Source: Persicobacter psychrovividus (GTDB lineage Bacteria; Bacteroidota; Bacteroidia; Cytophagales; Cyclobacteriaceae). From it: DNA of 64,000 nt. The notes under the pieces were generated by a model that saw nothing but the letters and a program-made list of their open reading frames with translations, did no database searches and was not told where the DNA came from. The translations under genes were made by a program, and so were the position numbers. Below, in pieces: positions 3,001 through 42,733 of the stretch (position 1 is the stretch's first letter; every line of letters starts with the position of its first letter). The stretch is from NCBI RefSeq assembly GCF_036492425.1, contig NZ_AP025292.1, positions 1 through 64,000 of the forward strand, written 5' to 3'.

Positions 3001-3369
3001 AAAGAAGCCGAAGGTAAAAATGGCAAAGGCGGCAAAGATTTGCAAAAAGCCATTGAAGAAATGGAAAAGACTGAACTCGATTTGGTAAACAAACAGCTCA
3101 GTGATCAAATGATGAACCGTCAAAAGGACATCATGACCAGACTCCTGGAGTCTGAAAAAGCTGATCGGGAAGACCAACTGGATGAGAAAAGGGAAGCGGA
3201 GACGGCAAAGAACTATCAACAGGAAGTGCCTGAAGCAATCGAAGAATATATTCGACAAAAACAAAAAGAGCTCGAGCGGTTCAAAACTATTCCGCTAAAA
3301 CTCAACCCTTATTATAAAAAAGAGGTCAATCAATATTTCAAAAGATTAGAAAACAACAATATCCGGTGA
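61..3369 (+). CDS. DUF4175-family membrane-anchored coiled-coil protein
   Basis: This 1102-residue protein begins with a short basic N-terminus and two hydrophobic segments (about residues 30-47 and 57-80). A third hydrophobic helix follows near residues 157-178. After that comes a beta-rich region (about 190-500) and then some 600 residues of Glu/Lys/Gln-rich heptad-like sequence that should form long coiled coils. This layout matches the DUF4175 family of Bacteroidota, whose biochemical role is not known. The stop overlaps the start region of the downstream ATPase gene, so the two are probably co-transcribed. I infer an inner-membrane protein with a large extracytoplasmic coiled-coil part. 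The start is the first ATG after the window edge; nothing upstream is visible to test it further. Confidence 0.8.
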   Translation: MTNDNRNELNNKLKQFKRRYYLNQLLKGGIFSFAIIATAFLLLNTVEFASRFGSGIRAVFFYSFILLLIGNFAYFILKPLLQLLGILQPISDEEAAQKIGSSLPTIGDRLLNLVQLKKNASTEDGLIHASINQKATQLDPYNFTEAEPVKKNKKYLKYIYIPSLLIVLILLFVPSFFVESTKRIVQYDKSFKPKAQFQFNIQNKKLIAFRNEDFNVQLALQGEAIPAQVYLKNAERRIKLKQKSADSFEYTFPKIQQDQDFQFEAAGFFSETYHIKVVPRPQIKNFEVTLKYPKYLGRTTDKMANTGNFEVPEGTEVSWKFMAPDAEEFLVHFKNEDSTYALASKNDAFNLQKKVMNSDQYEIDLNNQYGKNIDPVVYQVSVVKDEYPKIQLEQFQDTVLFNYIILGGNISDDHGLRALSLKYRTNPKGKFRTHRFKIDRQKTQQGFYLNWPLDTLELASDQKVEYFLQVTDNDQINGPKSSKTGIYSFNVPDKQALKEKVAEGNKANEKNIDKNLEQAKSVRNELKDLEQKLKSKKTLSWQDKQQIDDLIKKRQELNDGLQELQKKHQEEMARRERFEEQKNKSIKEKVEKLQELMNELLDDETKKLYEELQELMKEQSQDMDQVQDKLKEIDQKEQNLEEELERTMELFKRMKFDLEADQLTKQIEELEDKQAKLNEKTDEAPKSELEELKKEQQKLNKDFEDIKKEMSELQKTNNDLKAPNSMPDLSKEEQKVEQGQEQFDQAAEQKKKKKAKQAQEQISQNLQQMKQKMQQMQQSAEMEMVQENMENLRHILNNLINLSFEQEATMKEFRQTRQSDPRFLDLSQQQLKIQADSKIVQDSLKALAQRVFQISSFVTRELNEMNSHLNRSSSYIKERKKGNALSEQQFAMTSMNNLALLLDDVLSQMQQQMAEMKGNSGGKPQNKPMPSPSMSELQQQLNEKINQLKKSGKSGRQLSEEVAKLAQEQEQIRRALQEAEKEAEGKNGKGGKDLQKAIEEMEKTELDLVNKQLSDQMMNRQKDIMTRLLESEKADREDQLDEKREAETAKNYQQEVPEAIEEYIRQKQKELERFKTIPLKLNPYYKKEVNQYFKRLENNNIR

Positions 3370-3374
3370 TAACA

Positions 3375-3776
3375 ATGGAGTCAATCAAAATTGAAATTCC
3401 GTCATTGAGTGAAAATATCCGTATCGTCGAAAGCTTTATCGACAATACCAAAGAAAAATACCAACTCAACGATGACATTTATGGCAATATCATGATTGCG
3501 ATAACTGAGTCTGTGAACAATGCCATCCAACATGGCAACAAATTTGATAAAGATAAAAACGTAACCCTTACGGTGCACCACAATGAGGAGGCAGTAAAAT
3601 TTACGGTCGAAGACGAGGGAATCGGCTTTGACTTTAATAACTTGCCCGATCCTACGGCACCCGAGAATATCGATCAGCCACATGGGCGTGGAATCTTCCT
3701 GATTAAACACCTTTGTGATGAAGTCGAATTTAAAAATGAGGGCCGTATTTTAGAGTTATCATTTTATTTAAATTAA
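3375..3776 (+). CDS. RsbW/SpoIIAB-like ATP-binding protein (HATPase_c_2)
   Basis: A small GHKL ATPase of about 133 residues. The N-box is visible as ESVNNAIQHGN, the G1 box as VEDEGIGFDF and the G2 box as HGRGIFLIKHL. Standalone domains of this kind include anti-sigma factor kinases (RsbW, SpoIIAB), which phosphorylate an anti-sigma-antagonist on serine. No antagonist or sigma factor lies next to it, so the partner is unknown. An in-frame GTG at 3366 overlaps the previous stop, but the ATG at 3375 is the more likely start. Its stop TAA overlaps the ybeY ATG (TAATG), which points to translational coupling. Confidence 0.8.
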   Translation: MESIKIEIPSLSENIRIVESFIDNTKEKYQLNDDIYGNIMIAITESVNNAIQHGNKFDKDKNVTLTVHHNEEAVKFTVEDEGIGFDFNNLPDPTAPENIDQPHGRGIFLIKHLCDEVEFKNEGRILELSFYLN

Positions 3777-4213
3777 TGGAAGACCAAATTAATTTTTTCA
3801 CAGAGGAAGTAGATTTCAATACAGAACAGATCAACAACACCAAAGCGTGGGTTAATCAAGTCATTGAAAATGAAGGGTTTGAGCTTGAAGAAATCAATTT
3901 TATCTTTTGTAGTGACGAATACCTGCATAAAATAAATGTGGAGTATTTGGATCACGACACCTATACCGATGTTATCACTTTTGATAACAGCGATACGGCC
4001 GGATTTATTGAAAGTGATATCTTTATCAGTATTGAGAGAATCATCGAGAATGCCAAAACCCATGAGCAGTCTTTTGATCATGAGGTCAAAAGGGTTATTA
4101 TTCATGGGGTTTTGCACTTGCTTGGCTACAAAGACAAATCTGAGCAGGAAGCTTCCCTGATGAGAACAAAAGAAAATGAAGCAATTGCGCTTTTTGAAAA
4201 ATCTTTTGCTTAA
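3776..4213 (+). CDS. ybeY: Endoribonuclease YbeY (rRNA maturation factor)
   Basis: This 145-residue protein carries the UPF0054/YbeY metal motif as HGVLHLLGYKD near residues 105-115. The paired histidines bind zinc; the last His of the usual H-G-x-L-H-L-x-G-Y-D-H motif is replaced by KD, a form common in Bacteroidota. YbeY is a single-strand-specific endoribonuclease involved in 16S rRNA 3' end maturation and ribosome quality control. The region around EYLDHDTYTDVITFD also fits the family. It overlaps the ATPase gene upstream by one base and is followed by a pair of parS-like palindromes before mnmG. Confidence 0.93.
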   Translation: MEDQINFFTEEVDFNTEQINNTKAWVNQVIENEGFELEEINFIFCSDEYLHKINVEYLDHDTYTDVITFDNSDTAGFIESDIFISIERIIENAKTHEQSFDHEVKRVIIHGVLHLLGYKDKSEQEASLMRTKENEAIALFEKSFA

Positions 4214-4240
4214 ATTTGCGCAAGCATTTGAATATCAAAA

Positions 4241-4294
4241 TGTTCCACGTGAAACACTTCACCTTTAACAGGTAAGCACGTTTCACGTGGAACA
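4241..4294. promoter_or_regulatory. Inverted pair of parS-like ParB sites upstream of mnmG
   Basis: TGTTCCACGTGAAACA at 4241-4256 matches the ParB/Spo0J site consensus TGTTNCACGTGAAACA exactly. CGTTTCACGTGGAACA at 4279-4294 is the same motif on the other strand with one outer mismatch. The two lie 22 bp apart in the ybeY-mnmG gap, 4.6-5 kb from the proposed oriC, which is where parS sites normally cluster. As a pair they could also fold into a long hairpin, but no T-run follows, so a terminator role is unlikely. No parA or parB is in the window. Confidence 0.75.
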
Positions 4295-4347
4295 TTTACT
4301 TTTAATACTGTTTTACACGCCAAGAAAATAAGACAAAGGGAAAGCCT

Positions 4348-6213
4348 ATGTTTACAGAATATGATGTGATCGTTGTCGGAGCTGGCCATGCAGGCTGTGA
4401 AGCTGCTGCTGCCGCTGCCAATATGGGTATGCAAACACTATTGGTAACGATGAATATGAATACGATCGCACAGATGTCATGTAACCCTGCTGTGGGTGGG
4501 GTCGCAAAAGGTCAGATCGTAAGGGAAATTGATGCCCTTGGAGGACAAATGGGAATCATTACCGATAAATCGATGATTCAGTTTAGAATGCTGAACCGAT
4601 CGAAAGGACCTGCCATGTGGAGCCCGAGAGCCCAAAGCGACCGAATGAAGTTTGCTGAAGAATGGCGTATGCGCCTGGAACAAACAGAAAATCTTGACTT
4701 CTGGCAAGAGATGGTAACGGGCTTAATCATTGAAAAAGGGGAGGCCAAAGGCGTAATCACCAGTCTGGGATTGAAAATCCGTTCCAAAACTGTTGTTCTT
4801 ACAAACGGGACGTTCCTTAATGGTACCATTCATATTGGAGAAAAACAGTTTGGTGGTGGACGCGCAGGAGAAGGTGCAGCAAAGGGAATTACAGAACAAC
4901 TCGTTGACCTTGGAATGGAAGCTGGCCGAATGAAAACGGGCACACCTCCACGTGTTGATGGCCGAAGCCTTAACTGGGAGGCCATGAGCGAACAACCTGG
5001 CGACGAGCAGCCTTACAAATTTTCTTTCAGCGATGAAACAAGCACACTCAAGGAGCAAAGAAGCTGTTACATCACTTACACCAACCCTGAGGTGCATGAA
5101 ACATTGAAAGAAGGATTCGACCGTTCACCAATGTTCAATGGTAGAATCCAGGGACTTGGTCCACGTTATTGCCCATCGATTGAAGACAAAATCAACCGAT
5201 TTGCTGAACGCGATCGTCATCAGATTTTTGTTGAGCCAGAAGGATGGAATACTTGTGAAATCTATGTAAATGGTTTTTCCTCATCGCTTCCTGAAGATAT
5301 TCAGATGAAGGCTTTGCGAAAAATTGAAGGATTTGAGCAGGTGAAAATGTTCCGTCCAGGCTATGCGATTGAGTATGATTTCTTCCCACCGACACAACTT
5401 CAGATGTCATTGGAAACCCGCACAGTCAAAAATTTATATTTTGCAGGCCAAATTAATGGTACCACAGGATATGAAGAAGCTGGCGCACAGGGACTGATGG
5501 CTGGTATCAATGCCGCTTTGCGCGTAAAAGAGGAAAATCCACTGATCCTGAAACGTTCTGATGCCTATATTGGCGTTCTGATTGATGATTTGGTAAACAA
5601 AGGGACTGATGAGCCTTATCGCATGTTTACTTCACGTGCTGAATATCGAATCTTGTTACGTCAGGATAATGCTGATCTCCGCCTTACAGAGCAGGGACAC
5701 AAGATTGGATTGGCAAGTCAGGAGCGTTTCGATAATATGATCAAGCGCAAAGAAAACGTAGATCAGCTGATTGAAACCTTGAGGGTGTCCAAATTTAAGC
5801 CTAAACAGGCAAACCCTCAGCTTGAAACCATGAATTCGGCACAGATCAAAGAATCGCAGTCGGCTTACCGTTTACTGAAGCGTCCCGAGCTTTCCATGCA
5901 ACAGGTCGGTGTAATCACGCCTGAGTTCGAGCAGCAAATGTCCCAGTATGATCCTTTGGCAAAAGAGCAGGCAGAAATACTGATCAAGTACGATACTTAC
6001 ATCGAGAAGGAGCAGAAGATGGCGGAGAAGATGGATAACCTTGAAAACCTTTACATCAAGGACAGCATTGATTTTGCTGAAATAAAGGCACTGTCCTCTG
6101 AGGCAAGGGAAAAACTGACAAGGTTACGTCCAACTACATTAGGGCAAGCATCAAGAATTTCTGGTGTATCACCTGCTGATATTTCGGTATTAATGATTTA
6201 CCTTGGCAAGTAG
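4348..6213 (+). CDS. mnmG: tRNA uridine-5-carboxymethylaminomethyl modification enzyme MnmG (GidA)
   Basis: This 621-residue FAD protein has the full-length MnmG layout. The dinucleotide-binding motif VVGAGHAGCEAA is at residues 8-19. NPAVGGVAKGQIVREIDALG follows, then FGGGRAGEGAAKGI, the MKTGTPPR signature and a second FAD contact near GYEEAGAQGLMAG. With MnmE it installs the cmnm5 group on U34 of certain tRNAs, using methylene-tetrahydrofolate and FAD. In many bacteria gidA sits beside the replication origin; here it lies about 3 kb from the DnaA-box region and has parS-like sites on both sides. Confidence 0.97.
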   Translation: MFTEYDVIVVGAGHAGCEAAAAAANMGMQTLLVTMNMNTIAQMSCNPAVGGVAKGQIVREIDALGGQMGIITDKSMIQFRMLNRSKGPAMWSPRAQSDRMKFAEEWRMRLEQTENLDFWQEMVTGLIIEKGEAKGVITSLGLKIRSKTVVLTNGTFLNGTIHIGEKQFGGGRAGEGAAKGITEQLVDLGMEAGRMKTGTPPRVDGRSLNWEAMSEQPGDEQPYKFSFSDETSTLKEQRSCYITYTNPEVHETLKEGFDRSPMFNGRIQGLGPRYCPSIEDKINRFAERDRHQIFVEPEGWNTCEIYVNGFSSSLPEDIQMKALRKIEGFEQVKMFRPGYAIEYDFFPPTQLQMSLETRTVKNLYFAGQINGTTGYEEAGAQGLMAGINAALRVKEENPLILKRSDAYIGVLIDDLVNKGTDEPYRMFTSRAEYRILLRQDNADLRLTEQGHKIGLASQERFDNMIKRKENVDQLIETLRVSKFKPKQANPQLETMNSAQIKESQSAYRLLKRPELSMQQVGVITPEFEQQMSQYDPLAKEQAEILIKYDTYIEKEQKMAEKMDNLENLYIKDSIDFAEIKALSSEAREKLTRLRPTTLGQASRISGVSPADISVLMIYLGK

Positions 6214-6220
6214 GAACAAG

Positions 6221-6236
6221 TGTTCCACATGAAACA
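6221..6236. promoter_or_regulatory. parS-like site between mnmG and methyltransferase
   Basis: TGTTCCACATGAAACA differs from the consensus TGTTNCACGTGAAACA only by an A for G in the central CACGTG. It lies in the 44-bp gap after mnmG, within 3 kb of the proposed origin. Confidence 0.6.
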
Positions 6237-6257
6237 CCTTTTTCGGTCTACTGGTTT

Positions 6258-7136
6258 ATGTTAAAAGAATTTAAAGATTGCCCTGTTTGTCAGGGCAATC
6301 ATTTTACGCATTTTTTAAATTGTACGGATCACACCACCACTCAGGAGCAGTTCAATATTGTTACCTGTGATGATTGTGGTTTCAAATTTACCAATCCATA
6401 TCCTGCGAATTTAGGGGCATATTATAAAGATGAAAGTTATATTTCGCACACCAACAAGGCGCAAAATTTAACGCAACGGATTTACAAAATTGCCCGAAAA
6501 TATACGCTTGGTCAAAAGGAAAAAATGGTATCAGGGCTCTCTGATGGCCGAAAAATTCTTGATTTTGGTTGTGGTACAGGTCATTTCCTGAACAAGTGTG
6601 CTGAAAGTGGCTGGCAGGTTCAAGGCCTGGAGCCAAGTGATCAGGCACGGAGTCAGCATGGTCTACTTTTGCAGGGAAAAATTGTCAATAGTATCGACCT
6701 GCTAAGCGATGAAAAAGTGGATATCATCACCTTGTGGCACGTGCTTGAACATATTGAAGCACTCAATGAAACCCTTGACAAGCTTCGCCAAAAACTTTGT
6801 TCCACGGGAAAATTACTCCTCGCAGTACCCAATGCGGCCAGTCTGGATGCCAAAATTTACCAGGAGCACTGGGCGGCTTATGATCTGCCGAGACACCTCT
6901 ATCATTTTGAGCCCCAAACGATGGCTTTGCTGGCTAAAAAACATGGCTTTAAAATCAGCGCGCAGAAACCCATGAAATTGGATTCCTTTTATGTAAGTTT
7001 ACTGAGTGAGGAATATAAGACAGGCAAACAAAACTACCTGCCAGCCTTCATGGCGGGGCTAAAATCAAATTTGGCTGCGCGAAAAGACAATAATTACAGT
7101 AGTTTAATCTACATTTTGGAACATGAAAGTAAATAA
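6258..7136 (+). CDS. Class I SAM-dependent methyltransferase with N-terminal zinc ribbon
   Basis: A 292-residue protein. Cys8, Cys11, Cys37 and Cys40 form a CxxC...CxxC zinc-ribbon-like start. SAM-binding motif I reads ILDFGCGTGHFL near residues 100-111. TLWHVLEHIE, further on, is typical of the Methyltransf_23 group. The substrate cannot be told from sequence; relatives with this Cys-rich N-terminus methylate sugars, quinone-like compounds or other small molecules. Its last 14 bases overlap the start of the lipoprotein gene, so the two are likely co-transcribed. Confidence 0.8.
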   Translation: MLKEFKDCPVCQGNHFTHFLNCTDHTTTQEQFNIVTCDDCGFKFTNPYPANLGAYYKDESYISHTNKAQNLTQRIYKIARKYTLGQKEKMVSGLSDGRKILDFGCGTGHFLNKCAESGWQVQGLEPSDQARSQHGLLLQGKIVNSIDLLSDEKVDIITLWHVLEHIEALNETLDKLRQKLCSTGKLLLAVPNAASLDAKIYQEHWAAYDLPRHLYHFEPQTMALLAKKHGFKISAQKPMKLDSFYVSLLSEEYKTGKQNYLPAFMAGLKSNLAARKDNNYSSLIYILEHESK

Positions 7137-8844
7137 ATTAGCGAACCTCTTACTGGCATCGGGGATTTCTGCCCTATTTGTAACCTCCTGTGCGAATGTC
7201 AGACAACCCGCTGGTGGTCCTCGGGATACTATTCCGCCGACCCTGGTAAATTCGGTGCCTCAGGTAGGCTCTGTAAATTACAGGGGGAAAAAGTTCGTGC
7301 TTACTTTTGATGAGTACACGCAGGCTAAAAACCTGAAAACCAAGCTACTCATTACGCCTCAAACAGATGTGCGTTATCAGTTCCGCACCAAAAAGAAATC
7401 CCTGATCATTGAATTCGAGGAACCTCTGAAGGAAAATACCACCTATACTTTCAACTTCCAGGATGCCATTCAGGATATCAATGAGAATAATCCGTGGAAA
7501 AATGCCGTATTTGCATTCAGTACCGGGGATTATATCGACAGCCTGAAAATCAATGGAACGGTACGCGATGTACTCACTGGAGCACCTGTAAAGGAGGCGA
7601 CAGTCGCTTTGTTTGACATCAAAGATACCTTGGACATTTACACTGGAAAGCCAGAATATTTTGCCAAAACAGATGAAGAAGGCCATTACAATCTGAGTCA
7701 TATCCGTCACGGTAAGTTTAAAGCTTACGCTTATCTGGACGAAAATAACAACCTGATCAACGAGCCCAAAAGTGAGCCCGCAGGCTTGTATCCCGATACA
7801 CTCAGCCTTGATACCGACCGCGACAGCCTTCATTTCAACTTAATTCTTGCGGATGCACAGCCATTCAAAATGAATTCTGCCAAAGAAAATGGAAAGTACT
7901 TTGATGTGCTGTTCAATAAGTATGTGAAAAGTTATCAGTTGTCATTTAAAAATGACGATCAGCTGATGCTGTCTACTTTCAGTCCTGAGCATAATGGTGT
8001 TCGCTTTTTTAATGCGACACAAATCCCAGAGAATGACAGTATTCCAACGCAGATTATTGCCACAGATACAGTAGGAAATAAGGTAGTAGAAAATTTCCAC
8101 GTGAAATTTGCGGATGGGACAAAGCGTAAATATGCTGTACTTGAACAAGAAGTTCAGAAATATGCCAACGACAACCCCATTCAGGATACTTTAATTGAGA
8201 AAATTCAGTTTTCAAAACCAATACGAGTTGTACATCCTGACTCTATGATGGTGATTTACGATTCCTTGAACTTTATTCGCCTCGATATCGATAAAGACTT
8301 AAGCTGGAATAAACGCTTTGATGAAGTAACCATCAAAAAAGCCATAAAGCTGGACTCAATTTTCCTTCCTCCTGCAGATACGCTGTTTCTTGACAGCCTG
8401 AAAGCGGATAGTATTTATATTCAACAGCCTGAAGCACGAACTTTTACAGATATGAAGCTTCATATTCCACATGGAGCTTTTATCAGCATTGAAAGTGATA
8501 CTGCCCAGGCGATTGATGAGAAGTTTACCCTGGCGAATAAGGAAAATCTCGGAAGTATCGAAGGAACAATTACGACAGACTATAAAAATTATCAAATTCA
8601 GCTGGTTACTGCTGATTTTAAAGTTGTAAAAACAACAACGGCTGATAAAAATGGCCATTATAGCTTTTATAATTTGAAGCCAGCCACTTACAAAATTCGA
8701 GTTTTAATCGATGAAAATGGCAATGGGCAGTGGGATATTGGTAATATCCTTAAAAATGAAGCCCCAGAACCTGTATTTTTCTTTCAGGATGAGGTAGCAA
8801 TACGCGCCAACTGGGAATTAACCAACATTGATTTCAAAATGTAA
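7123..8844 (+). CDS. Ig-like (Big_5) surface lipoprotein
   Basis: This 573-residue protein has a signal peptide ending in a lipobox-like FVTSC, so Cys23 is probably lipidated. The PAGGPRDTIPPTLV stretch just after it is the usual entry to a Big_5 (SbsA-type Ig-like) domain in Bacteroidota. Further beta-rich repeats follow, including a carboxypeptidase-regulatory-like segment (TDEEGHYNLSHIRHGKFKAY) and a second near the C-terminus (TADKNGHYSFYNLKPATYKI). I infer an envelope-exposed lipoprotein of unknown function. It is the last gene of the run that reads toward the origin, and two strong terminators follow it. Confidence 0.78.
   Translation: MKVNKLANLLLASGISALFVTSCANVRQPAGGPRDTIPPTLVNSVPQVGSVNYRGKKFVLTFDEYTQAKNLKTKLLITPQTDVRYQFRTKKKSLIIEFEEPLKENTTYTFNFQDAIQDINENNPWKNAVFAFSTGDYIDSLKINGTVRDVLTGAPVKEATVALFDIKDTLDIYTGKPEYFAKTDEEGHYNLSHIRHGKFKAYAYLDENNNLINEPKSEPAGLYPDTLSLDTDRDSLHFNLILADAQPFKMNSAKENGKYFDVLFNKYVKSYQLSFKNDDQLMLSTFSPEHNGVRFFNATQIPENDSIPTQIIATDTVGNKVVENFHVKFADGTKRKYAVLEQEVQKYANDNPIQDTLIEKIQFSKPIRVVHPDSMMVIYDSLNFIRLDIDKDLSWNKRFDEVTIKKAIKLDSIFLPPADTLFLDSLKADSIYIQQPEARTFTDMKLHIPHGAFISIESDTAQAIDEKFTLANKENLGSIEGTITTDYKNYQIQLVTADFKVVKTTTADKNGHYSFYNLKPATYKIRVLIDENGNGQWDIGNILKNEAPEPVFFFQDEVAIRANWELTNIDFKM
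8094..8106. promoter_or_regulatory. Weak parS-like core inside the lipoprotein gene
   Basis: TTTCCACGTGAAA is an interrupted palindrome sharing the CCACGTGAAA core of the parS-like sites. It is inside coding sequence and lacks the outer TG and CA bases, so it may be chance. Confidence 0.25.
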
Positions 8845-8862
8845 TCCCTCGATTAATCATTC

Positions 8863-8901
8863 AAAAATCGCCGACTCCTTAATGGAGTCGGCGATTTTTT
8901 T
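8863..8901 (+). terminator. Rho-independent terminator after the Ig-like lipoprotein gene
   Basis: A perfect stem AAAAATCGCCGACTCC (8863-8878) pairs with GGAGTCGGCGATTTTT across a five-base loop and runs into eight T residues. It is the first of two terminators facing the origin. Confidence 0.92.
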
Positions 8902-8910
8902 TGCCCTCTT

Positions 8911-8924
8911 TTTCACGTGGAAAA
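8911..8924. promoter_or_regulatory. Weak parS-like site between tandem terminators
   Basis: TTTCACGTGGAAAA carries the TTTCACGTGGAA core of the parS-like motif but lacks the outer TG and CA bases. Its place between the two terminators and beside oriC makes it worth noting. Confidence 0.35.
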
Positions 8925-8926
8925 TT

Positions 8927-8965
8927 AAAAAGGCCGTCAATTTCATGATTGACGGCCTTTTTTTT
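8927..8965 (+). terminator. Second tandem terminator facing oriC
   Basis: AAAAAGGCCGTCAAT pairs with ATTGACGGCCTTTTT over a short loop and ends in eight T residues. It lies 25 bp behind the first terminator with no gene between them, so it looks like a back-up stop that keeps transcripts out of the origin. The arms are symmetrical, so it could also act on transcripts from the right. Confidence 0.9.
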
Positions 8966-9510
8966 GCTCGCGAAACTCCTTTTTCCACAATGCTTTTTTC
9001 ACCATTCTGAAAATCCGTTTCAAAATTTATTTCTGAACCGCCTTACCCACATTAATCGGTCGTTTTGCTGCTTTTTTTGTCGATTTTTCACGTACAAATT
9101 ATTACCGGAGGATAACCCTGTGGATAACCGTTGAAAAGTCCGGAATAAGTCCGATTTTCACTAAAAGTTATCCCCACTTACCCACACTTATCTTGGGCGT
9201 TTCCCGAAATTCCAAATCCACGTTCATAAGTTCGATTTATACACCCCGAAATCCCCCATTTTATCCACTTGTGGACAGTGTGGAAAAAAGTTATCCACAA
9301 AATAATTGTTTTCGCGAAATTCAATGTTAATTAGCTTAAAAACAAGTAATTTCATGTGGATAATGGCTGTGGATAAGTCCCCATATCGGTTTACTGATCG
9401 TGCAAAAATCGCTGATTTTTAAATAATCAGTAACTTATCCACTAATCCACACCGTAATAAATACAATAACTCTTTTTAAAAAGAATATATATAAACTAAT
9501 ACTATCTATC
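8966..9510. other. Probable chromosomal replication origin (oriC)
   Basis: A gene-free stretch with exact DnaA boxes at 9119-9127 (-), 9291-9299 (+), 9355-9363 (-) and 9368-9376 (-). One-mismatch boxes are at 9168-9176, 9178-9186, 9261-9269, 9279-9287, 9435-9443 and 9443-9451. About one exact 9-mer would be expected by chance in 128 kb of strand. The right end (9452-9510) is strongly AT-rich and contains the palindrome TCTTTTTAAAAAGA (9471-9484), a good candidate for the unwinding element. The + strand is C-rich to the left and mildly G-rich to the right in the lines I counted, as expected of an origin. dnaA is not adjacent, which is common in Bacteroidota. Confidence 0.88.
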
Positions 9511-11343
9511 ATGTGGAAAACATCCCTCGCTTTTAAGATTCTTGGATTTACTGCTTTTTTAAGTTTTGGAATTCTTTCAAGTCAAGCACAAGATTTTCAA
9601 AAAGTGAGTATTGCTGAAGAATACTTAGGAAGGGGAGAAATTGAGAAGGCTGAGGATATTTATGAAAAATTGGCGCGAAACAATGAAAACCTTCCGCTGA
9701 TTCATAAACCCTATCTCGATTTGCTGTTCAGCACTAAAAATTTCAAGCAGGCAGAAAAGTACCTCAACAGGGCGATCAAGAAAAATCCAGAAGATATGAT
9801 TTACCAGGTCGATCGGGGACGGCTGTACGAATCGCAAGGGGAGATGAGCCAGGCGGAAAAATATTTCAATAATTTGATTGACGATCAGGCTAAGGACTTG
9901 AACAACCTACGGAACCTGGCGCAGGAGTTTTACAGAGCGCAGGAATTTGACTGGGCTGAGCTTACTTTTTTGAAAGGTCGCAAGGTGGCCAAGAATGAGG
10001 GGTTATTTGCTCATGAGCTGGCAAATATCTATCGCATGACCAACCAAAAAGACAAGATGGTCAATGAGTACGTTCAGATGGCCGTTAGGAACCCCAAGAA
10101 TCGATCCTACGTCAAAAATGTACTCCAGTCAGCTTTAACCGACGAAGAGGACCTGGAGGCTTTTGAAAGCTACCTGATCGACAGGATACAAAAAGACGGC
10201 AAGGAAGCCTTCTATCCCGAGATGCTCATTTGGGCAAACATGCAACAGCGGAATTTTTACGGCGCCTTCGTTCAGGCGCGCAGCTTGGATAAGCGAAGCA
10301 AGAGCAATGGCGACTACCTGATGAATGTGGCACAGATGGCGTTGCGCCATCAGGATTATGAACATGCCGTCATGGCCTACGATTACGTCATTGAGCATTA
10401 TCAGAAAAGCCCGAATTATTTCCTGGCCCGCAATGCAATTATCAAGGCAAGGGAGGAACAAGTGAAAAATACCTATCCTGTAGAGATGAATTCTATTGAT
10501 GAGCTCATCAGTAGCTATGAGAAGCTCATCACGGAGGTTCCGACCTCGCAGACAACCTTGGAGGCCAAAAAGAATAAGGCGATGTTACACGCGCTCTACA
10601 AGGGCGAATACGACATCGCGATTAATTTGCTGGAATCTGTGGTTGGGCAACAAAAGGTTTCAAAACAACTGAAGCTGGAGTGCAAGATCGCCCTTGGTGA
10701 TATTTATCTTTTGAAAGATGAACCCTGGGAATCTCGATTGCTGTATGCACAGGCAGAAAAGGAGGGGAGGGAAACCCCGATTGGTTATGATGCGAAGTTG
10801 CGCAGCGCCAAATTATCCTATTACACGGGGGACTTTAAGCTTGCCGCTGCCCATCTCGATGTACTGAAACTCGCTACGACAAGGGAAATTGCCAACGATG
10901 CCATGTCGTTGAGCTTACTGATCAAAGACAACACCGCACTGGACAGTACCGAAACGGCCATGAAAACCTATGCGGCAATTGATCTGTTGCTGTTTCAGCA
11001 CAAAAACGACCAAGCGCTCGCGGGGCTGAAAAAAATGCTCACCGATTTTCGGGGGCACAGTTTACAGGATGAAATTCATTACCTGATGGCTGAAGTTTAC
11101 AAAAAGCAGGGAAGCTTTCCGTTGGCACTGGAGCATCTGCAGAAGGTGATCGACCTGAACCCTGCCGATATTAAGGCTGATGACGCCATGTTTGAAAAGG
11201 CCAAAATCTATGAAATTTATCTGAAGGAAAAACAGGCGGCAATGGAAACCTACGAGCTGCTAATGAAAAATTACCCTGGAAGTATTCATGTCGATGAATC
11301 CCGAAAGCGGTTTAGAGCCCTTCGGGGGGATTTTCCGAATTAA
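9511..11343 (+). CDS. Exported tetratricopeptide-repeat protein
   Basis: This 610-residue protein has a signal peptide with a likely cleavage after SSQAQ near residue 27. It then consists mostly of helical TPR units, such as AEEYLGRGEIEKAEDIYEKL near the start and SFPLALEHLQKVIDLNPADI near residue 540. TPR arrays are protein-binding scaffolds; no catalytic domain is visible. It is the first gene to the right of oriC and reads away from it. I infer a periplasmic scaffold, perhaps in envelope assembly, but the partner is unknown. Confidence 0.8.
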   Translation: MWKTSLAFKILGFTAFLSFGILSSQAQDFQKVSIAEEYLGRGEIEKAEDIYEKLARNNENLPLIHKPYLDLLFSTKNFKQAEKYLNRAIKKNPEDMIYQVDRGRLYESQGEMSQAEKYFNNLIDDQAKDLNNLRNLAQEFYRAQEFDWAELTFLKGRKVAKNEGLFAHELANIYRMTNQKDKMVNEYVQMAVRNPKNRSYVKNVLQSALTDEEDLEAFESYLIDRIQKDGKEAFYPEMLIWANMQQRNFYGAFVQARSLDKRSKSNGDYLMNVAQMALRHQDYEHAVMAYDYVIEHYQKSPNYFLARNAIIKAREEQVKNTYPVEMNSIDELISSYEKLITEVPTSQTTLEAKKNKAMLHALYKGEYDIAINLLESVVGQQKVSKQLKLECKIALGDIYLLKDEPWESRLLYAQAEKEGRETPIGYDAKLRSAKLSYYTGDFKLAAAHLDVLKLATTREIANDAMSLSLLIKDNTALDSTETAMKTYAAIDLLLFQHKNDQALAGLKKMLTDFRGHSLQDEIHYLMAEVYKKQGSFPLALEHLQKVIDLNPADIKADDAMFEKAKIYEIYLKEKQAAMETYELLMKNYPGSIHVDESRKRFRALRGDFPN

Positions 11344-11359
11344 CCGAAAGAATAAATGT

Positions 11360-11390
11360 AAAGGAAGGAATAATATTTCTTCCTTTTTTG
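11360..11390 (+). terminator. Terminator after the TPR gene
   Basis: AAAGGAAGGAAT pairs with ATTTCTTCCTTT with one G-T pair and runs into T residues. Confidence 0.75.
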
Positions 11391-11424
11391 TTCTTTTGTT
11401 GTGTAAATTGAAATATTACAAATC

Positions 11425-12012
11425 ATGAACCTCCCAACAGACTATATCGACCAGCTGATCGCCAAACGCAGATCCATCTATCCCGACCAATACACTGGTG
11501 AAGTGATTGACGATGGAGTTATTGAACAGCTTCTTGAAAATGCCCGTTGGGCACCTACGCACAAACTGACGCAGCCTTGGGCATTTACCGTATTCACTGG
11601 TGCTGGCCTGCAACAGCTGGCTGATTTTCAGTCCACACTTTACAAAAAAGTAGCAGAGGAGCAGGGGACTTTCAAGGAAGAAAAATTTCAGAAATTGGCC
11701 AATAAACCATTGAAATCCTCCCATATCATTGCGATTGGAATGCGCAGAGATCCCAAGCAATTAGTGCCTGAAGTTGAGGAAGTCGCTGCGGTGGCTATGG
11801 CCGTTCAGAACATGTACCTTTCCGCTACCGCCTATGGCATCGGCTGTTATTGGGGATCGGGGGGCGTAACTTATTTTCCTGAGGCCAAGGCATTTTTTGA
11901 TCTTGGAGAGGAAGATCAGCTCTTAGGATTTTTATATTTAGGAGTACCAGAAAAATGGCCCCTAAAACATAAAAGAGCACCATTGTCTGAAAAAGTTCGT
12001 TGGGTTCGTTAA
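11425..12012 (+). CDS. Nitroreductase-family FMN oxidoreductase
   Basis: A 195-residue protein of the nitroreductase fold. The start IDQLIAKRRSIYPDQYTG and the following LLENARWAPTHKLTQPWAF are the usual FMN-phosphate and flavin-contacting segments. AVAMAVQNMYLSATAYGIGC is the dimer-forming helix. Members use NAD(P)H to reduce nitro groups, quinones or flavins; the physiological substrate is rarely known. It sits alone between two terminator or promoter regions. Confidence 0.88.
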   Translation: MNLPTDYIDQLIAKRRSIYPDQYTGEVIDDGVIEQLLENARWAPTHKLTQPWAFTVFTGAGLQQLADFQSTLYKKVAEEQGTFKEEKFQKLANKPLKSSHIIAIGMRRDPKQLVPEVEEVAAVAMAVQNMYLSATAYGIGCYWGSGGVTYFPEAKAFFDLGEEDQLLGFLYLGVPEKWPLKHKRAPLSEKVRWVR

Positions 12013-12060
12013 TATTTATATTGCTAAGAACATCGCTTAAATTTGCTAATGCAAGCCTAT

Positions 12061-15000
12061 ATGCATCGACTGTTAATATTATTTTTTATTGCCTTCATTT
12101 CCTGCTTTTCGAGCAGCTATGCACAACGTATGAAGCCTGCGGAACATATGGATTCGCTGAATATTCGTGTGCTTGAAGTTATGAAAGCAGGCAAGTCTGA
12201 CCGTTTTTTATCAACAGGTCAGCAATTTGATTCCCTTTGGACAGGTGGAAGCCTGTCATCAAGTCAGAAAGATAGAATCTATAAATTGTACAGTAAAATG
12301 GTGGAGAAGCAGTGGCGCGCGAAACCCTTCCTGTACGAGGTTACTTCCACCCTGACATCGGCCCGATACGTTACTGGTCTTTCTGTTGTGCAGTACGATG
12401 CACTACTCGATCAGCTTGAAAAAGGGATCGTCGAATTATCTCCCAAGGATTTTATTATGATGACCGAGGCGCTGCATACCTTTATGGCAAATCAGGCGCT
12501 TAATTATACCAATTTCTTTAAACTGATAGGGGAAGATGCACAATTTTCGCTAAAGTATGAGAGCGTTGCGGCTTATGTACCAACAGAGGAAAGCAGTGAA
12601 GAAGAACAGCAAAGCAGCGATGATGACTGGAATACTGAACCTGCGGATGATACAGAAAACGATAGTTCGGAGCAGGAAAGTGACGATAATTGGGGAAGCT
12701 GGGACTGGGGCGACAGCACGGACGATAGTACCACCGACGACAGCAGTACCGATGACGACGGAGGCTGGAGTTCCGCCGATGATGTTGCCGACAATTGGGG
12801 CGACAATGTAATTGTGGAGGATGAGAATAAAATGACGCTCGAGGAGCGGATCGATAGCTTTATTCAGGATGATGCTCCTGCGATCGAAGGTCCTTATATT
12901 CATTTTGATCGGGTAAACCTGGTATTTCAGACGCCTTTTGATTCCGTTGTGGTGATGGATGTTCAAGGGGATTTTTTATTGAAAGAGGGTATTTTTGTCG
13001 CCTATTCAGGAAAAATGGATTGGTCGTCTACGGGCGGATGGGAAGAAAACAGCCCTTACTGTACATTTACAAAATTTCACTTCAATGTTAGGCAACCCAA
13101 GTTTGGTGTAGAAAAAGCAACACTTTACTACCCAGAAAAACTTCGCCAGCCCACCCTCGGTGTATTTGATTTTAAGAGTGTTCGCAAGAAGAAAAATGCG
13201 GTTCCCTCCTATCCAAGATTTACTTCCTACGGAAGCGACATTGAACTTAAAACTTTCATAGATAATAATTTCAGCTATCAGGGAGGTTTCTCCCTTTGGG
13301 GATTGCGATCGTCTTCCAATTCTATATTTGGTGGCGGAAGTGAAGTCAAGTATGCAGGTACAGGCAACCGCTCGTTCAGGATCGCTTCAGGTTTGGTAGA
13401 ATATACCGACTCGGCATTCCATGTTAATAATGGTGCACTGACGATAAAATATGGGCGAGATTCTCTCTTTCACCCAGAGATGGAAATTGATTACCGTCAG
13501 GCAGATACTACCCTTCACGCCCTCAAGCGAAAAGGCGTAAACGAAATGGCCCCCTTTCAGGTCACCTTTTTTGATATGGACATTAAGGCAGATTACCTGC
13601 GCTGGAAGCTGAATCAGGATTCTCTTGACATTTCTATCTTTCAGGCCAGAGATCACCGTCCCGCTTTTTTTGAGTCGAGAGATTATTTCAATAAGAAAAA
13701 TTATCAGTCCCTGACCTCCATTTATGGCTTTCATCCACTGAATGCCCTGAACTATTATAGTCAAAAGATACGGTCGAAATCTTTCGGGATGTACGATTTT
13801 GCTGAATCGATCAAAAAAGACCCCAAGATTGTACAGCAGGCGATGTTTAAGGCACGTGAGGGTGGTTTTATTGACTACGACCCAGAAACGACCATCATTA
13901 CGGTAAAGGATAAAACCAATCATTACAACGCCTCCTTCCGTCACAAAAAAGATTATGATGACCTGACGATACCTTCGCGAACCAATAGTGCTCCGAATGC
14001 GACTTTGCACCTCGATGAGAAAAAGATGACTGTACGCGGGATCAATAAGTTTTATATCAGTGAAAAGCTCGATGTGTATATTCAGCCTGAATCTGAGCAG
14101 ATAGATTTGATTGGTAAGCGGGACTTTACCTTTAACGGTCACCTGTTTTCAGGAAATTTTGAGTTCATCGGAACGGATTTCGTTTTTCGCTACGACAGCT
14201 TTTTGATTCAGCTTAATAAAATTGACTCCATCAGGTTCTATTTGCCTGACTCCGTAAGTGGTGAGCGCAGGCAGGTAGACAACTCCCTGGTATCAGCAGA
14301 AGAGCAACTCACGGCCAGTCTAAACTCCAATATGGGCGCGACCAACGGAACACTTTATATCAACAACCCAAAAAATAAGTCGGGAATCAGGCAGTATCCA
14401 AGTTATCCTCGATTCGATGCAGAACGCGGTGCGGTGGTGTATTTTGATAACCACAGTTACCTTGATAAGGCCTATGACCGTCAGGTTTATTTTATCATCC
14501 CTCCTTTCTCCATTGATAGTCTGGCAGGTGGCGATCCTTCCGCTATTGGTTTTCAGGGGCGCTTTGTTAGTGGGGGAATTTTCCCTGACTTTGAAGAGAA
14601 ATTGTCGATTATGCCAGATAATTCCCTGGGCTTTGTACATAAAGTCCCTGAGGAAGGATATGCGCTTTATGATACCGACGGCATTATTTATGATGAAGTA
14701 AGACTCGATAAACAAGGGCTACAAGGAAAGGGGCACTTTGAGTTGCTTTCCAGTAAAACCTTTGCCACAAAATACACCATGTATCAGGATTCCATGCGGG
14801 CATCATCAAGTCATTCAACCATTGAGGCGGGAGGTTTTGCAGGGATCAGCTACCCTGCCGTAGATGGCGAAGGCTTGGAACTGTTGTGGTTGCCACGCGA
14901 GGACAGCCTGTTTCTGCAAACTACGGAAACACCGATCAAAATTTATGAGGAAGGTGATTTGACAGGGGCGACAGTACTTACGCACAGTGGATTGCGGGGT

Positions 15001-17268
15001 AAAGGAAATTTTGATATTCGGGGTTCAGAAACCGCCTCCGACAAGTTCAGGTATGAGGAACTGAAGTGGCAAGCTGAAGAAGCACAGTTTAATATTAACT
15101 CGGAAGATTCCACCAAGGCGACCCTTTATGGCGATAATGTTTCTGTGGATTTCAACCTCGAAGAAAACCTGGCAAAGGTATCTCCAGAGGTCGAGGGTGA
15201 TGCCGCAATTTCATTCCCTTATGCGATGACCAAGACCTCGATTACGGAAGCGAATTGGGATTTGGATAAGGACATCATTACGATGAACAAGCCTAAAGAG
15301 GTTGATATCAAGGACTCCTACTTCTACTCCACCCGACCCGATATGGACAGTCTGGTGTTTTCAGCAGAAGGTGCCTCTTATGATATTGCACGACAGGAAA
15401 TGGAGGTGACAGGTATTCCGTACATTACAGTGGCCGATGCCCTGATTAGTCCAGACTCCAGCAGAATTACCATTCAGCCGAATTTTGTTTTACCACAGCT
15501 GACCAATGCGAGCCTGGTTATTGATACCCTCAATGGCTACCATAACCTGATCGACGGAAACATCAATATCCTTTCGCGTAAAGCATTTGAGGGCGATGCC
15601 TCCTACCGCTTTGTAAATGCGGTGCAGGATACTTTCAATATTAAATTTAATCAGTTTGAATTATTGCCTGACCGTAAAAAGCAACTTCATACAGAGTCCA
15701 ATGGTGAAATTCATGAGGAAGATAACCTGCTGATTTCTCCAGGAATGTACTTTAAAGGTACCGCAACCATGTACGCAACCAGTAAACCACTTTTGCTGAA
15801 TGGTTTTGTCAAACTCGATTTGAAAAATATCCCTGATTACGATACCTGGATTGTGTACGAAAGTAATGATGAAGAACAGCAGGAAATCATTTTCGATTTT
15901 GCTTCAGCAATCACCGAAGAAGGCGATCCTCTGACTGCAGGAATTCACTTTGAAGATGGTACCAATCAGCTTTACACCACCTTTATTTTTGAAAAGCACC
16001 AAATGTCGGATCAGGATTTCTTCGTTCCCAATGGCCTGCTTTCTTATGATCGGGAGAAAGGCCACTACATTGTGGAGGATACCATGAAAACACGTGGGCA
16101 TTCTTTTGCAGGTAAGTTCTATACCTATAACGAGGAAACTTCAGACATTACCTTTGAGGGGAAAGTGGATCTGATGAATAACCTGAACCCGAAGGTCTTT
16201 AAATTCAGGCTGAATGCTTCTGCAATTGGTTCTGGAAACCTGAACAACAATACGGTTAAGTTCAATGGTTTCACAACCATAGAAACCATCCTTCCGAGTG
16301 CTTCCCTGACCTCCATGGCCAATACCATTAACTTGGCAGCAGAGGATAAAGGATTAGCCAAAGCCAACGATGACCTGACGCAACTATTCTATAAGGTCAG
16401 TGAAATTATTGGGGATCGGGCAACGAAGAATTACGAAACCATGCTATCGACAGATTATGCTCCTTTGGTAAAGATGTCGAGAAAATTGCAGCGGGGAATT
16501 GTACTTTCAAACTTCGACATGGAGTGGTCGCAGGATCAGACGGCCTGGTACTCGGTTGGAAATATCGGTATCTCCAATATTTTGGGTATTGATATCAACG
16601 CCAAAACCGAAGGCTATCTGGAGGTGAAGAAAACCGTTGATGGCGATATTGTCAATCTCTTCCTGAGTGCAGGGCAAGAAGCCTGGTATTATCTGAATTA
16701 CAATTATTCGGAAAATCGCTTCTCCACCTACTCTGCCGACCCTGTTTACAACGAGGCGGTGATCAAGAAGAGTAATGTTGACAAAGCGAAAATGGGAGAG
16801 TTTATTATGGCGATTTCTGATAAGGAGGAAGTGATGAACTATGTCAATAGATTCCGACTGATTTATCTTGATATTGAAGAGGAGTTTGTGATCTCAGAAC
16901 CATCGCTCACCGAAGACTCAGGAGATCCGTTCTTTGATGCGGGTAGCCTTGAAGAAGATGAAAATACGGAAAATATTATCTTCAGCGACGATGATGAAAG
17001 CCTGTATGATGATGCCGTGGAGGAAGACGAAAATGAAAGTAATGCCCCTGTGAGTGAGTCTGTAGAGCAAGATGAGGTTACTGAAGACGATGGCTTCGGA
17101 GAGGAAGAACTGAAAAACGAGGAGGCGCAAAAGCCCAAGAAGGAAAAGAAAGGGCGCAAACGGAAAGGGAAAAAGAAAAAAGAGGAAGAAGTCGTAAAAC
17201 CTGAACCTCAGCAGGAACAGCAGGACGATGAAGACAGCCTTTATGATGATGAAGATGATGGCTTTTAG
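12061..17268 (+). CDS. Very large exported protein of unknown function
   Basis: About 1735 residues from this start. An N-terminal signal peptide ends near SSSYAQ. A helical part is followed by an acidic Ser/Asp/Trp-rich low-complexity linker (about residues 175-265). Over 1300 residues of repetitive beta-rich sequence come next, without recognised motifs. The tail is strongly acidic, then Lys-rich (KKEKKGRKRKGKKKKEEE), then acidic again. I do not recognise a named family. The beta-rich body with many short strands could resemble OstA/LptA-like jellyroll proteins, but that is a guess. ATG 12049 and TTG 12043 lie in frame upstream. I prefer 12061 because a TAAATTTG -7-like element ends at 12045 and the signal peptide begins here. 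Confidence 0.7.
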   Translation: MHRLLILFFIAFISCFSSSYAQRMKPAEHMDSLNIRVLEVMKAGKSDRFLSTGQQFDSLWTGGSLSSSQKDRIYKLYSKMVEKQWRAKPFLYEVTSTLTSARYVTGLSVVQYDALLDQLEKGIVELSPKDFIMMTEALHTFMANQALNYTNFFKLIGEDAQFSLKYESVAAYVPTEESSEEEQQSSDDDWNTEPADDTENDSSEQESDDNWGSWDWGDSTDDSTTDDSSTDDDGGWSSADDVADNWGDNVIVEDENKMTLEERIDSFIQDDAPAIEGPYIHFDRVNLVFQTPFDSVVVMDVQGDFLLKEGIFVAYSGKMDWSSTGGWEENSPYCTFTKFHFNVRQPKFGVEKATLYYPEKLRQPTLGVFDFKSVRKKKNAVPSYPRFTSYGSDIELKTFIDNNFSYQGGFSLWGLRSSSNSIFGGGSEVKYAGTGNRSFRIASGLVEYTDSAFHVNNGALTIKYGRDSLFHPEMEIDYRQADTTLHALKRKGVNEMAPFQVTFFDMDIKADYLRWKLNQDSLDISIFQARDHRPAFFESRDYFNKKNYQSLTSIYGFHPLNALNYYSQKIRSKSFGMYDFAESIKKDPKIVQQAMFKAREGGFIDYDPETTIITVKDKTNHYNASFRHKKDYDDLTIPSRTNSAPNATLHLDEKKMTVRGINKFYISEKLDVYIQPESEQIDLIGKRDFTFNGHLFSGNFEFIGTDFVFRYDSFLIQLNKIDSIRFYLPDSVSGERRQVDNSLVSAEEQLTASLNSNMGATNGTLYINNPKNKSGIRQYPSYPRFDAERGAVVYFDNHSYLDKAYDRQVYFIIPPFSIDSLAGGDPSAIGFQGRFVSGGIFPDFEEKLSIMPDNSLGFVHKVPEEGYALYDTDGIIYDEVRLDKQGLQGKGHFELLSSKTFATKYTMYQDSMRASSSHSTIEAGGFAGISYPAVDGEGLELLWLPREDSLFLQTTETPIKIYEEGDLTGATVLTHSGLRGKGNFDIRGSETASDKFRYEELKWQAEEAQFNINSEDSTKATLYGDNVSVDFNLEENLAKVSPEVEGDAAISFPYAMTKTSITEANWDLDKDIITMNKPKEVDIKDSYFYSTRPDMDSLVFSAEGASYDIARQEMEVTGIPYITVADALISPDSSRITIQPNFVLPQLTNASLVIDTLNGYHNLIDGNINILSRKAFEGDASYRFVNAVQDTFNIKFNQFELLPDRKKQLHTESNGEIHEEDNLLISPGMYFKGTATMYATSKPLLLNGFVKLDLKNIPDYDTWIVYESNDEEQQEIIFDFASAITEEGDPLTAGIHFEDGTNQLYTTFIFEKHQMSDQDFFVPNGLLSYDREKGHYIVEDTMKTRGHSFAGKFYTYNEETSDITFEGKVDLMNNLNPKVFKFRLNASAIGSGNLNNNTVKFNGFTTIETILPSASLTSMANTINLAAEDKGLAKANDDLTQLFYKVSEIIGDRATKNYETMLSTDYAPLVKMSRKLQRGIVLSNFDMEWSQDQTAWYSVGNIGISNILGIDINAKTEGYLEVKKTVDGDIVNLFLSAGQEAWYYLNYNYSENRFSTYSADPVYNEAVIKKSNVDKAKMGEFIMAISDKEEVMNYVNRFRLIYLDIEEEFVISEPSLTEDSGDPFFDAGSLEEDENTENIIFSDDDESLYDDAVEEDENESNAPVSESVEQDEVTEDDGFGEEELKNEEAQKPKKEKKGRKRKGKKKKEEEVVKPEPQQEQQDDEDSLYDDEDDGF

Positions 17269-17308
17269 TGCTGAATTTATGTGACATTGCAAGGATTTTT
17301 CCTTGACA

Positions 17309-17337
17309 TTGTGCTTCTTTGTTAGGATATAAATTTG
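17309..17337 (+). promoter_or_regulatory. Bacteroidota-type promoter for mgsA
   Basis: TTG at 17309-17311 and TAAATTTG at 17330-17337 are separated by 18 bp, matching the -33 TTG / -7 TAnnTTTG pattern of the Bacteroidota primary sigma factor. The ATG is 12 bp downstream. Confidence 0.65.
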
Positions 17338-17349
17338 ATTTAATTTTTT

Positions 17350-17796
17350 ATGGCAACATTAGGTAAGTATAAAAATATCGCCTTGGTGGCGCATGACAAT
17401 CGCAAGAAAGCGATGATGGATTGGGCTAAAAAGCATAAAGAAAAATTGGGTAAGCATAATATCTTTGCTACTGGAACAACAGGAAAACTGCTCGAAGAGA
17501 CGCTCGATATTAAAGTCAACCGATTCTTCAGCGGACCTTTAGGCGGTGACCAGCAGATTGGTGCTAAGATTGCTGAAGGAGAAATAGATTTTTTGATTTT
17601 CTTCTGGGATCCATTGGAGCAACAGCCTCACGATCCAGACATCAAAGCTTTATTGCGTATTGCAGTGGTATATAATATTCCTGTTGCAAGTAATATTGCT
17701 TCTGCGGATTTCTTATTGAGCTCTCCGTATTTTGAGTCGGAATATGCCGCTGATGCCGTTGATTTTGATGAGTACCTGAACCGTACGATTGAATAG
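17350..17796 (+). CDS. mgsA: Methylglyoxal synthase
   Basis: This 148-residue protein matches MgsA over its length. It starts with IALVAHDNRKKAMMDWA, has the phosphate-binding FATGTTGKLL near residues 40-49, and carries the signature SGPLGGDQQIGAKIAEGEID. FFWDPLEQQPHDPDIKALLR includes the catalytic Asp region. It converts dihydroxyacetone phosphate to methylglyoxal and phosphate, a bypass used under phosphate limitation or sugar-phosphate stress. The gene is monocistronic: it has its own promoter and a terminator. Confidence 0.96.
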   Translation: MATLGKYKNIALVAHDNRKKAMMDWAKKHKEKLGKHNIFATGTTGKLLEETLDIKVNRFFSGPLGGDQQIGAKIAEGEIDFLIFFWDPLEQQPHDPDIKALLRIAVVYNIPVASNIASADFLLSSPYFESEYAADAVDFDEYLNRTIE

Positions 17797-17891
17797 ATAA
17801 AAAATGATGACGCAAGTGGAATCATACACCTGCCAAGTCAACAATACACTCTCTTTGTGATTTTATAAGTAAATTATTAAAATTATACCAT

Positions 17892-17927
17892 AAATAAAGC
17901 CTCAGTTTTCGCTGAGGCTTTATTTTT
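17892..17927 (+). terminator. Terminator after mgsA
   Basis: AAATAAAGCCTCAG pairs with CTGAGGCTTTATTT over a six-base loop and ends in T residues. The first DnaA box overlaps the T-run. Confidence 0.88.
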
Positions 17928-18004
17928 ATCCACAGTGTGGATAACTACTGTGGATAAGTCGGTGTCATTTGTTGAAAACGTTATTTGCAAGCAAATTACC
18001 CACA
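17926..18004. repeat. Second DnaA-box group (three exact boxes)
   Basis: Exact boxes lie at 17926-17934 (+), 17936-17944 (-) and 17949-17957 (-), and a one-mismatch TTACCCACA at 17996-18004. The first two face each other with one base between. Three exact 9-mers within 32 bp is far above chance. The site is about 8.6 kb from oriC. Possible roles, all inference, are a DnaA titration or reactivation site, or a second part of a split origin. Confidence 0.85.
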
Positions 18005-18110: not shown

Positions 18111-18290
18111 TCAATTTTCTTTATTTTTCTTTTTGGCGTAATAATCAACCAAATACGCCACACCGATCACCCCTGCAGCACAGAAGGTCAGCAGCACTTT
18201 ATGTTGCTCAAAACGCAATGAGGCATAAAACATGATCATCGCACCGATCACCAAAATCCACGCTAATTTATGTAACCACCCACTATTCAT
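18111..18290 (-). CDS. Small two-helix membrane protein (59 residues)
   Basis: An ATG at 18290 opens a 59-residue frame ending at 18111. Two hydrophobic helices are clear: about residues 9-25 (LAWILVIGAMIMFYASL) and 32-48 (VLLTFCAAGVIGVAYLV). A Lys-rich tail YYAKKKNKEN follows, which by the positive-inside rule puts the C-terminus in the cytoplasm. The composition is that of a real membrane protein, but no family is recognised. It is convergent with mgsA and divergent from the SNF2 gene. Confidence 0.65.
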   Translation of the reverse strand: MNSGWLHKLAWILVIGAMIMFYASLRFEQHKVLLTFCAAGVIGVAYLVDYYAKKKNKEN

Positions 18291-41938: not shown

Positions 41939-42733
41939 TTATTTGTACCAATAAGAGGCGATCAGTTGCTGAAGGTCGCCAACAATGCCTCCACCGGCAA
42001 TGAGTTGTTTGCCAAAAAGGAAATTATCCTGCCCGTCAAAGTCAATGACTTTTCCGCCGGCCTCCTGTACAATGATAATGCCTGCGGCCACATCCCAAGG
42101 CTTTAAGTTGTACTCGTAAAAGGCCTCAAAGCGTCCGCAAGCCACATACGCAAGGTCTATGGCTGCGCTGCCGAGCCTGCGCAAGCCGTGTGTGTTGTGC
42201 ATCAGGTGGTCGAGAATTTGCAGGTAGGCATCCATTTTATCGAATCGTTGATAAGGGAATCCTGTAGCGATCAGGCTGTCCTCGATGGTTTCCGCCTCAC
42301 TGACGTGAATAGGCTTCCCGTTGCGTGTTGCTCCCCCACCCTGGTGCGCCGAGAATAGTTCGTCGGTTTCGGGTGCATATATTACCCCGAGGATGGGTTG
42401 GTCACCTTTCAGTAAGCCGATACTGGTACAGTATAATGGCAGTTGGTGCAGGAAGTTTGTTGTCCCGTCCAGTGGGTCGATCACCCAGGTGTAAGTGGAT
42501 TTTCTCTGTTCGGTGGTGCCCTCTTCGGTAATAAATCCAGCTTCAGGGAACAATGCGGAAAGTTCCTTGACCAGCATTTTCTCTGTTTCTTTATCCACAT
42601 AAGAAACAAGGTCATTTCGTCCTTTTTTCTCGATGCGGTTTTTATCCATTTTCTGACATTCAGACTTCATGAATGCACCCGCTTTCTGGCTCAGGATTTC
42701 TACTTCCCTGCGTAAGGTTTGGAGGTCTTTCAT
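41939..42733 (-). CDS. Inositol monophosphatase-family phosphatase
   Basis: A 264-residue protein. The metal-binding motifs are ITEEGT, then WVIDPLDGTTNFLHQLP, and near the end PWDVAAGIIIVQEAGG. It hydrolyses phosphomonoesters such as inositol 1-phosphate or related substrates (SuhB/CysQ relatives). I choose the ATG at 42733; the frame extends 40 codons upstream, but that part has no family resemblance. One exact DnaA-box sequence falls at 42591-42599 inside it and is isolated, so I treat it as chance. Confidence 0.9.
   Translation of the reverse strand: MKDLQTLRREVEILSQKAGAFMKSECQKMDKNRIEKKGRNDLVSYVDKETEKMLVKELSALFPEAGFITEEGTTEQRKSTYTWVIDPLDGTTNFLHQLPLYCTSIGLLKGDQPILGVIYAPETDELFSAHQGGGATRNGKPIHVSEAETIEDSLIATGFPYQRFDKMDAYLQILDHLMHNTHGLRRLGSAAIDLAYVACGRFEAFYEYNLKPWDVAAGIIIVQEAGGKVIDFDGQDNFLFGKQLIAGGGIVGDLQQLIASYWYK

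Follow-up and report, generated by a model that had tools for sequence, protein, structure and literature searches.

In the genome of the marine bacterium Persicobacter psychrovividus, an intergenic block of 53 bp (17926–17978 of the window, by which we mean the whole 64-kb stretch of DNA that was analysed) contains three exact DnaA boxes and a weak fourth one, arranged in a lattice that is kept unchanged in a second species of the genus. Judging from the sequence, we regard it as an even call whether this block serves, outside oriC, as a dedicated site of DnaA assembly that would modulate the timing of initiation, which is the interpretation that we favour.

The box group is located 8.5 kb from oriC, in the gap between two converging genes. 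The features on which the analysis rests are as follows.

9119–9520, no strand: oriC, the primary box cluster, with four exact and several one-mismatch boxes and a putative AT-rich unwinding region at 9455–9514; conserved in Persicobacter sp. CCB-QB2
17350–17796, forward strand: mgsA (MGS-like domain; PF02142, E 6e-21), the upstream neighbour
17892–17925, forward strand: mgsA terminator hairpin (15-bp stem, fold z −7.9), its T-run abutting box I; stem sequence replaced in CCB-QB2
17926–17934, forward strand: DnaA box I, TTATCCACA, exact match; identical in CCB-QB2 and isolate 477
17936–17944, reverse strand: DnaA box II, TTATCCACA, exact match, opposing box I with 1 bp between them; identical in CCB-QB2 and isolate 477
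17949–17957, reverse strand: DnaA box III, TTATCCACA, exact match, in the direction of box II and offset from it by 13 bp; identical in CCB-QB2 and isolate 477
17970–17978, reverse strand: weak DnaA box IV, TTTTCAACA (TGTTGAAAA on the forward strand), offset by 21 bp from box III in both species
18111–18290, reverse strand: gene for a 59-aa membrane protein, an open frame that forms the convergent neighbour between mgsA and the helicase gene; counterpart conserved in CCB-QB2 and visible in the genome G012 described below

The gene order in the window is mnmG (4348), a gene for a Big_5 protein, oriC, a TPR protein gene, a nitroreductase gene, a 1741-aa ORF, mgsA, and an SNF2 helicase gene (18440). 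The sequence makes a convincing case for the assignment of oriC to about 9119–9520, and 9455–9514, beside its boxes, is less stable than any other 60-mer in the window. The dnaA gene is far from oriC, at C1:2655427.

Boxes I–III together occupy 32 bp with start-to-start spacings of 10 and 13 bp, and the complete lattice reads +, 10, −, 13, −, 21, weak −. A preliminary description of this DNA had reported three exact boxes in 32 bp, two of them opposed and one base apart, and both statements hold: the boxes start at 17926 (+), 17936 (−) and 17949 (−), and it is boxes I and II, exact matches, that face each other. It had also placed the boxes over the T-run of the mgsA terminator, and indeed box I begins one base after the end of the hairpin at 17925, although this hairpin was not listed by the consensus scan. 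Its estimate that about 0.5 exact 9-mers would be expected by chance in the window agrees with the 0.59 that we computed; eight are observed, a number reached by none of 100 shuffles. Four of these eight lie in oriC, three in the group near mgsA, and one is isolated at 42591. In the entire genome (6.1 Mb) there are 86 exact boxes, compared with 60 for the reversed control, and at this density only about 4e-6 triples within 32 bp are expected by chance. This confirms that the group is a real, non-chance cluster of exact DnaA boxes.

With regard to a fourth element, the near-match TTACCCACA that had been described is present at 17996–18004; however, it is not conserved, reading TCACCCACA in a same-species isolate and being absent from CCB-QB2. 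As it differs within the species and is missing from the second one, this near-match is probably incidental, and we rejected it in favour of the weak box at 17970–17978. The sequence of the latter, TTTTCAACA, occurs only once in the 64-kb window, and a TTTTCAACA variant in the oriC of CCB-QB2 aligns with TTTTCCACA in the oriC of the window, which supports TGTTGAAAA as a DnaA box.

The same genome (C1) has other, looser groups, with two to four exact boxes each, at 427, 539, 2956 and 3066 kb, one of them near ATP synthase genes; the compact geometry was not found in any of these four. The box-group stretch itself is a single copy in the genome. A repeat or mobile element was rejected on the grounds of this single copy and of the lack of a plasmid match in PLSDB. 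We also rejected a promoter operator, given the position between convergent gene ends and promoter-like matches that do not exceed chance level; no promoter was placed near the box group.

Conservation within the genus could be assessed with two independent species, that of the window and CCB-QB2, as the uncultured isolate 477 (MgsA identical to that of the window; 91% identity in CCB-QB2) belongs to the same species as the window. Boxes I–III and their 10/13 spacing are unaltered in CCB-QB2, although the sequence around them has diverged: the terminator stem and the AT-rich leader differ, as does most of the sequence downstream. The gap between box III and TGTTGAAAA is 12 bp long in both species despite changes in seven of its 12 letters. 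Over the 53-bp block, none of the 36 box positions differs between the two species, as opposed to ten of the 17 spacer positions (Fisher p = 1e-6), and the distance from oriC to the box group is about the same as in the window. This sequence pattern, boxes kept beside mgsA within changed flanks, is the one that the preliminary description had named as a sign of function, and it supports the view that the block is a DnaA-box group maintained by selection. An RNA hairpin was rejected as the selected feature, because the 11-bp inverted repeat formed by boxes I and III is not maintained in CCB-QB2, where the 9-mers are kept.

To determine how widely this arrangement occurs, we scanned genomes for exact boxes only, in the order +, −, − with gaps of 1–10 and 1–12, so that genera with degenerate clusters would be missed. 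Within the family, five of 391 genomes contain such a face-to-face triple (three Persicobacter, G031 and G012), compared with none for the mirror-orientation control (−, +, +). A phylum-wide sample of 395 genomes added a single triple, in G483, a member of another class; this one has 15/12 spacing, close to the 14/12 of DARS, and lies in an intergenic region that looks convergent, with two tandem boxes about 120 bp away. Of the genera sampled, G012 and G031 are the two whose MnmG is most similar to that of Persicobacter (74% each, the next being 72%), and they are among the closest by MgsA. The G031 triple has exactly the 10/13 spacing but is found at an unrelated site, flanked by sugar-kinase-like and TetR-like genes (assigned by reading the translations), at least about 28 kb from the oriC of this draft assembly of about 410 contigs. 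G031 has an enlarged group at C142:41690–41900, in which two palindromic box pairs are separated by 145 bp and accompanied by a third tandem box and by weak boxes; it contains more exact boxes than the G031 oriC. The G012 triple is looser (16/19), lies beside a galE-like gene and, if the contig is a closed circle, is about 650 kb from oriC.

The order mnmG, Big_5 protein, oriC, TPR protein, large ORF, mgsA (61–17796 in the window) is also found in G031, and G012 keeps the order oriC-TPR-mgsA-SNF2, with dnaA distant. At its mgsA-SNF2 locus, however, G012 has almost no intergenic space and no box, and at 28 mgsA loci of other family genera no exact boxes were found in the approximately 3.4 kb around mgsA. 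Loss of the boxes with gene order intact, proposed at the outset as evidence against a function, is thus seen between genera and not within Persicobacter. These sequence comparisons indicate that, in this clade, it is the architecture that is kept and not the address, which is conserved only within Persicobacter.

We considered several functions for such a lattice, of which assembly of DnaA outside oriC appears the best explanation. DnaA occupancy, the geometry of the oligomer, and the effect on initiation together with its sign are what we infer by analogy with known sites. Three to four DnaA molecules would fit on the three strong boxes and the weak one: two of them would pair head to head on boxes I and II, and from this pair DnaA would extend head to tail via box III and the weak box. 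In the DnaA of this organism, the residues that contact the box in E. coli (R399, D433, H434) are retained. As the site lies 8.5 kb from oriC, replication would double it almost at once (seconds to tens of seconds after firing), a timing that suits capture or inactivation; the likeliest net effect would be that DnaA is captured, or its nucleotide state altered, just after initiation, so that re-firing is restrained. There is precedent for restraint of initiation by clusters of DnaA boxes that lie outside oriC, namely the oriC-proximal clusters of B. subtilis and the cluster of S. coelicolor (PMC5742627, PMC5295017), and the Persicobacter group resembles these DnaA-binding clusters, as described in reviews, in having strong, apparently selected boxes outside oriC. 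On the other hand, for pure titration, three or four sites are few when the genome has 86 exact boxes, proximity to oriC holds only in Persicobacter and not for the G031 and G012 triples, only two independent species of the genus were compared, and the head-to-head topology is closer to the activating DARS than to datA.

This topology deserves closer comparison. At both DARS1 and DARS2 of E. coli MG1655, the sequences of which we read, the box order is +, −, − and the spacing 14/12; a head-to-head pair I/II with a tandem box III is a prominent feature of DARS, and the essential datA boxes all point in one direction (PMC5742627). Like datA, the Persicobacter group is a cluster of DnaA boxes that lies on the origin side of the chromosome but outside oriC; however, the datA boxes 2178 and 2245 of the E. 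coli stretch L132 are about 67 bp apart and unidirectional, whereas here box I faces box II in a compact group. With the DARS cores it shares three clustered intergenic boxes, of which box I is opposed to II and III, and a similar II–III spacing (13 versus 12 bp). Box topology thus supports a comparison with DARS over one with datA. Yet boxes I and II are spaced 10 rather than 14 bp apart, which places them in another helical phase, and the boxes are exact (those of E. coli are degenerate), lie 8.5 kb from oriC and are accompanied by a fourth, weak box. Because the spacing of 10/13 differs from 14/12, we do not claim membership in the DARS class.

A recharging function of the DARS type, in which ADP-DnaA would assemble head to head, shed its ADP and leave as apo-DnaA, which would then take up ATP and promote the next initiation, is conceivable by analogy but, in our estimate, rather unlikely. 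Besides the matching box order and II–III spacing, it can draw on the residues for DARS activity that this DnaA keeps (D269 and L290, the sensor-1 Asp and AID-2 Leu used at DARS), although these are likely to be conserved widely. Agreement in box order is also expected by chance for one of four orientation classes, no equivalent of the DARS flanking regulatory region was identified, reports of the DARS2 core are limited to E. coli relatives among the gammaproteobacteria (PMC4245941), and the dosage of an oriC-proximal site better fits an inhibitory one. A search of the genome for a second DnaA-like protein resembling Hda found none, so that inactivation of DnaA by the Hda route of E. coli may be absent; four equally scoring 243-aa ORFs for DnaA-like ATPases (C3:207642, 222319, 298307 and C11:22414) probably encode the helper ATPase of an IS21-type insertion sequence. 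That Persicobacter and its sister genera, in which Hda was not detected, possess a movable switch of the DnaA nucleotide state, rigidly head to head and an independent analogue of DARS, strikes us as doubtful, more so than recharging as such.

The preliminary description had also raised the possibility of a split origin with 8.5 kb looped out. In such an arrangement, DnaA bound at the group would meet DnaA at oriC, and the group would aid unwinding of oriC. Both clusters contain a tandem 13-bp pair of the same polarity, both are conserved in CCB-QB2 at about equal separation, and an unstable AT-rich 60-mer lies at 17840–17899; this stretch, however, is mostly missing in CCB-QB2. In that species, GC skew remains steadily negative over the second group; the break occurs at oriC and the minimum about 15 kb beyond it, from which we conclude that replication does not start at the second group. 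A bipartite oriC of the B. subtilis type likewise comprises two box groups in one chromosome region, but there the clusters flank dnaA and the second one lies at the skew switch, whereas here the groups are 8.5 kb apart, dnaA is elsewhere and there is no skew switch at the second group. Conservation of architecture without address argues against a split origin as well: in G031, oriC and the triple are separated by at least about 28 kb, and in G012, where the mgsA locus is boxless, they are also far apart. Taken with the CCB-QB2 skew, these positions make a split origin very unlikely.

We give equally little credence to a transcriptional device, in which a DnaA roadblock behind the mgsA terminator would sharpen termination between the convergent genes or couple termination to the cell cycle. 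In its favour, the genes on either side converge and box I abuts the T-run in both species even though the stem was replaced, so that coupling of DnaA binding to the terminator is possible from the sequence. Nevertheless, the terminator is already strong, a roadblock would need fewer boxes than the three or four spaced ones seen here, CCB-QB2 does not maintain the long RNA hairpin of boxes I and III, and the compact triples of G031 and G012 adjoin other genes. Least credible, and in our view highly improbable, is that the group is a functionless relic or chance assembly, such as an origin fragment copied beside mgsA. Although the location is not conserved outside the genus, as might suit a relic, selection is confined to the box positions, the same geometry recurs in G031, and no related sequence is found elsewhere in the genome or on plasmids.

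Within the limited literature collection searched, we found no paper on DnaA boxes in Bacteroidota or on DARS or datA in Bacteroidetes. Detailed knowledge of how DnaA is controlled outside oriC is confined to E. coli, with an outline available for Bacillus and Streptomyces. The Persicobacter lineage is itself unusual, as its rRNA operons are carried on plasmids only (PMC10645730). The conserved, compact, single-copy candidate site described here offers a small target in Bacteroidota (53 bp, four boxes), at which titration, DARS-like recharging and split-origin models predict different outcomes. By analogy with the E. coli and Bacillus sites, the box group probably helps to control when replication starts; were it an independent analogue of DARS, site-encoded recycling of DnaA would not be peculiar to gammaproteobacteria.
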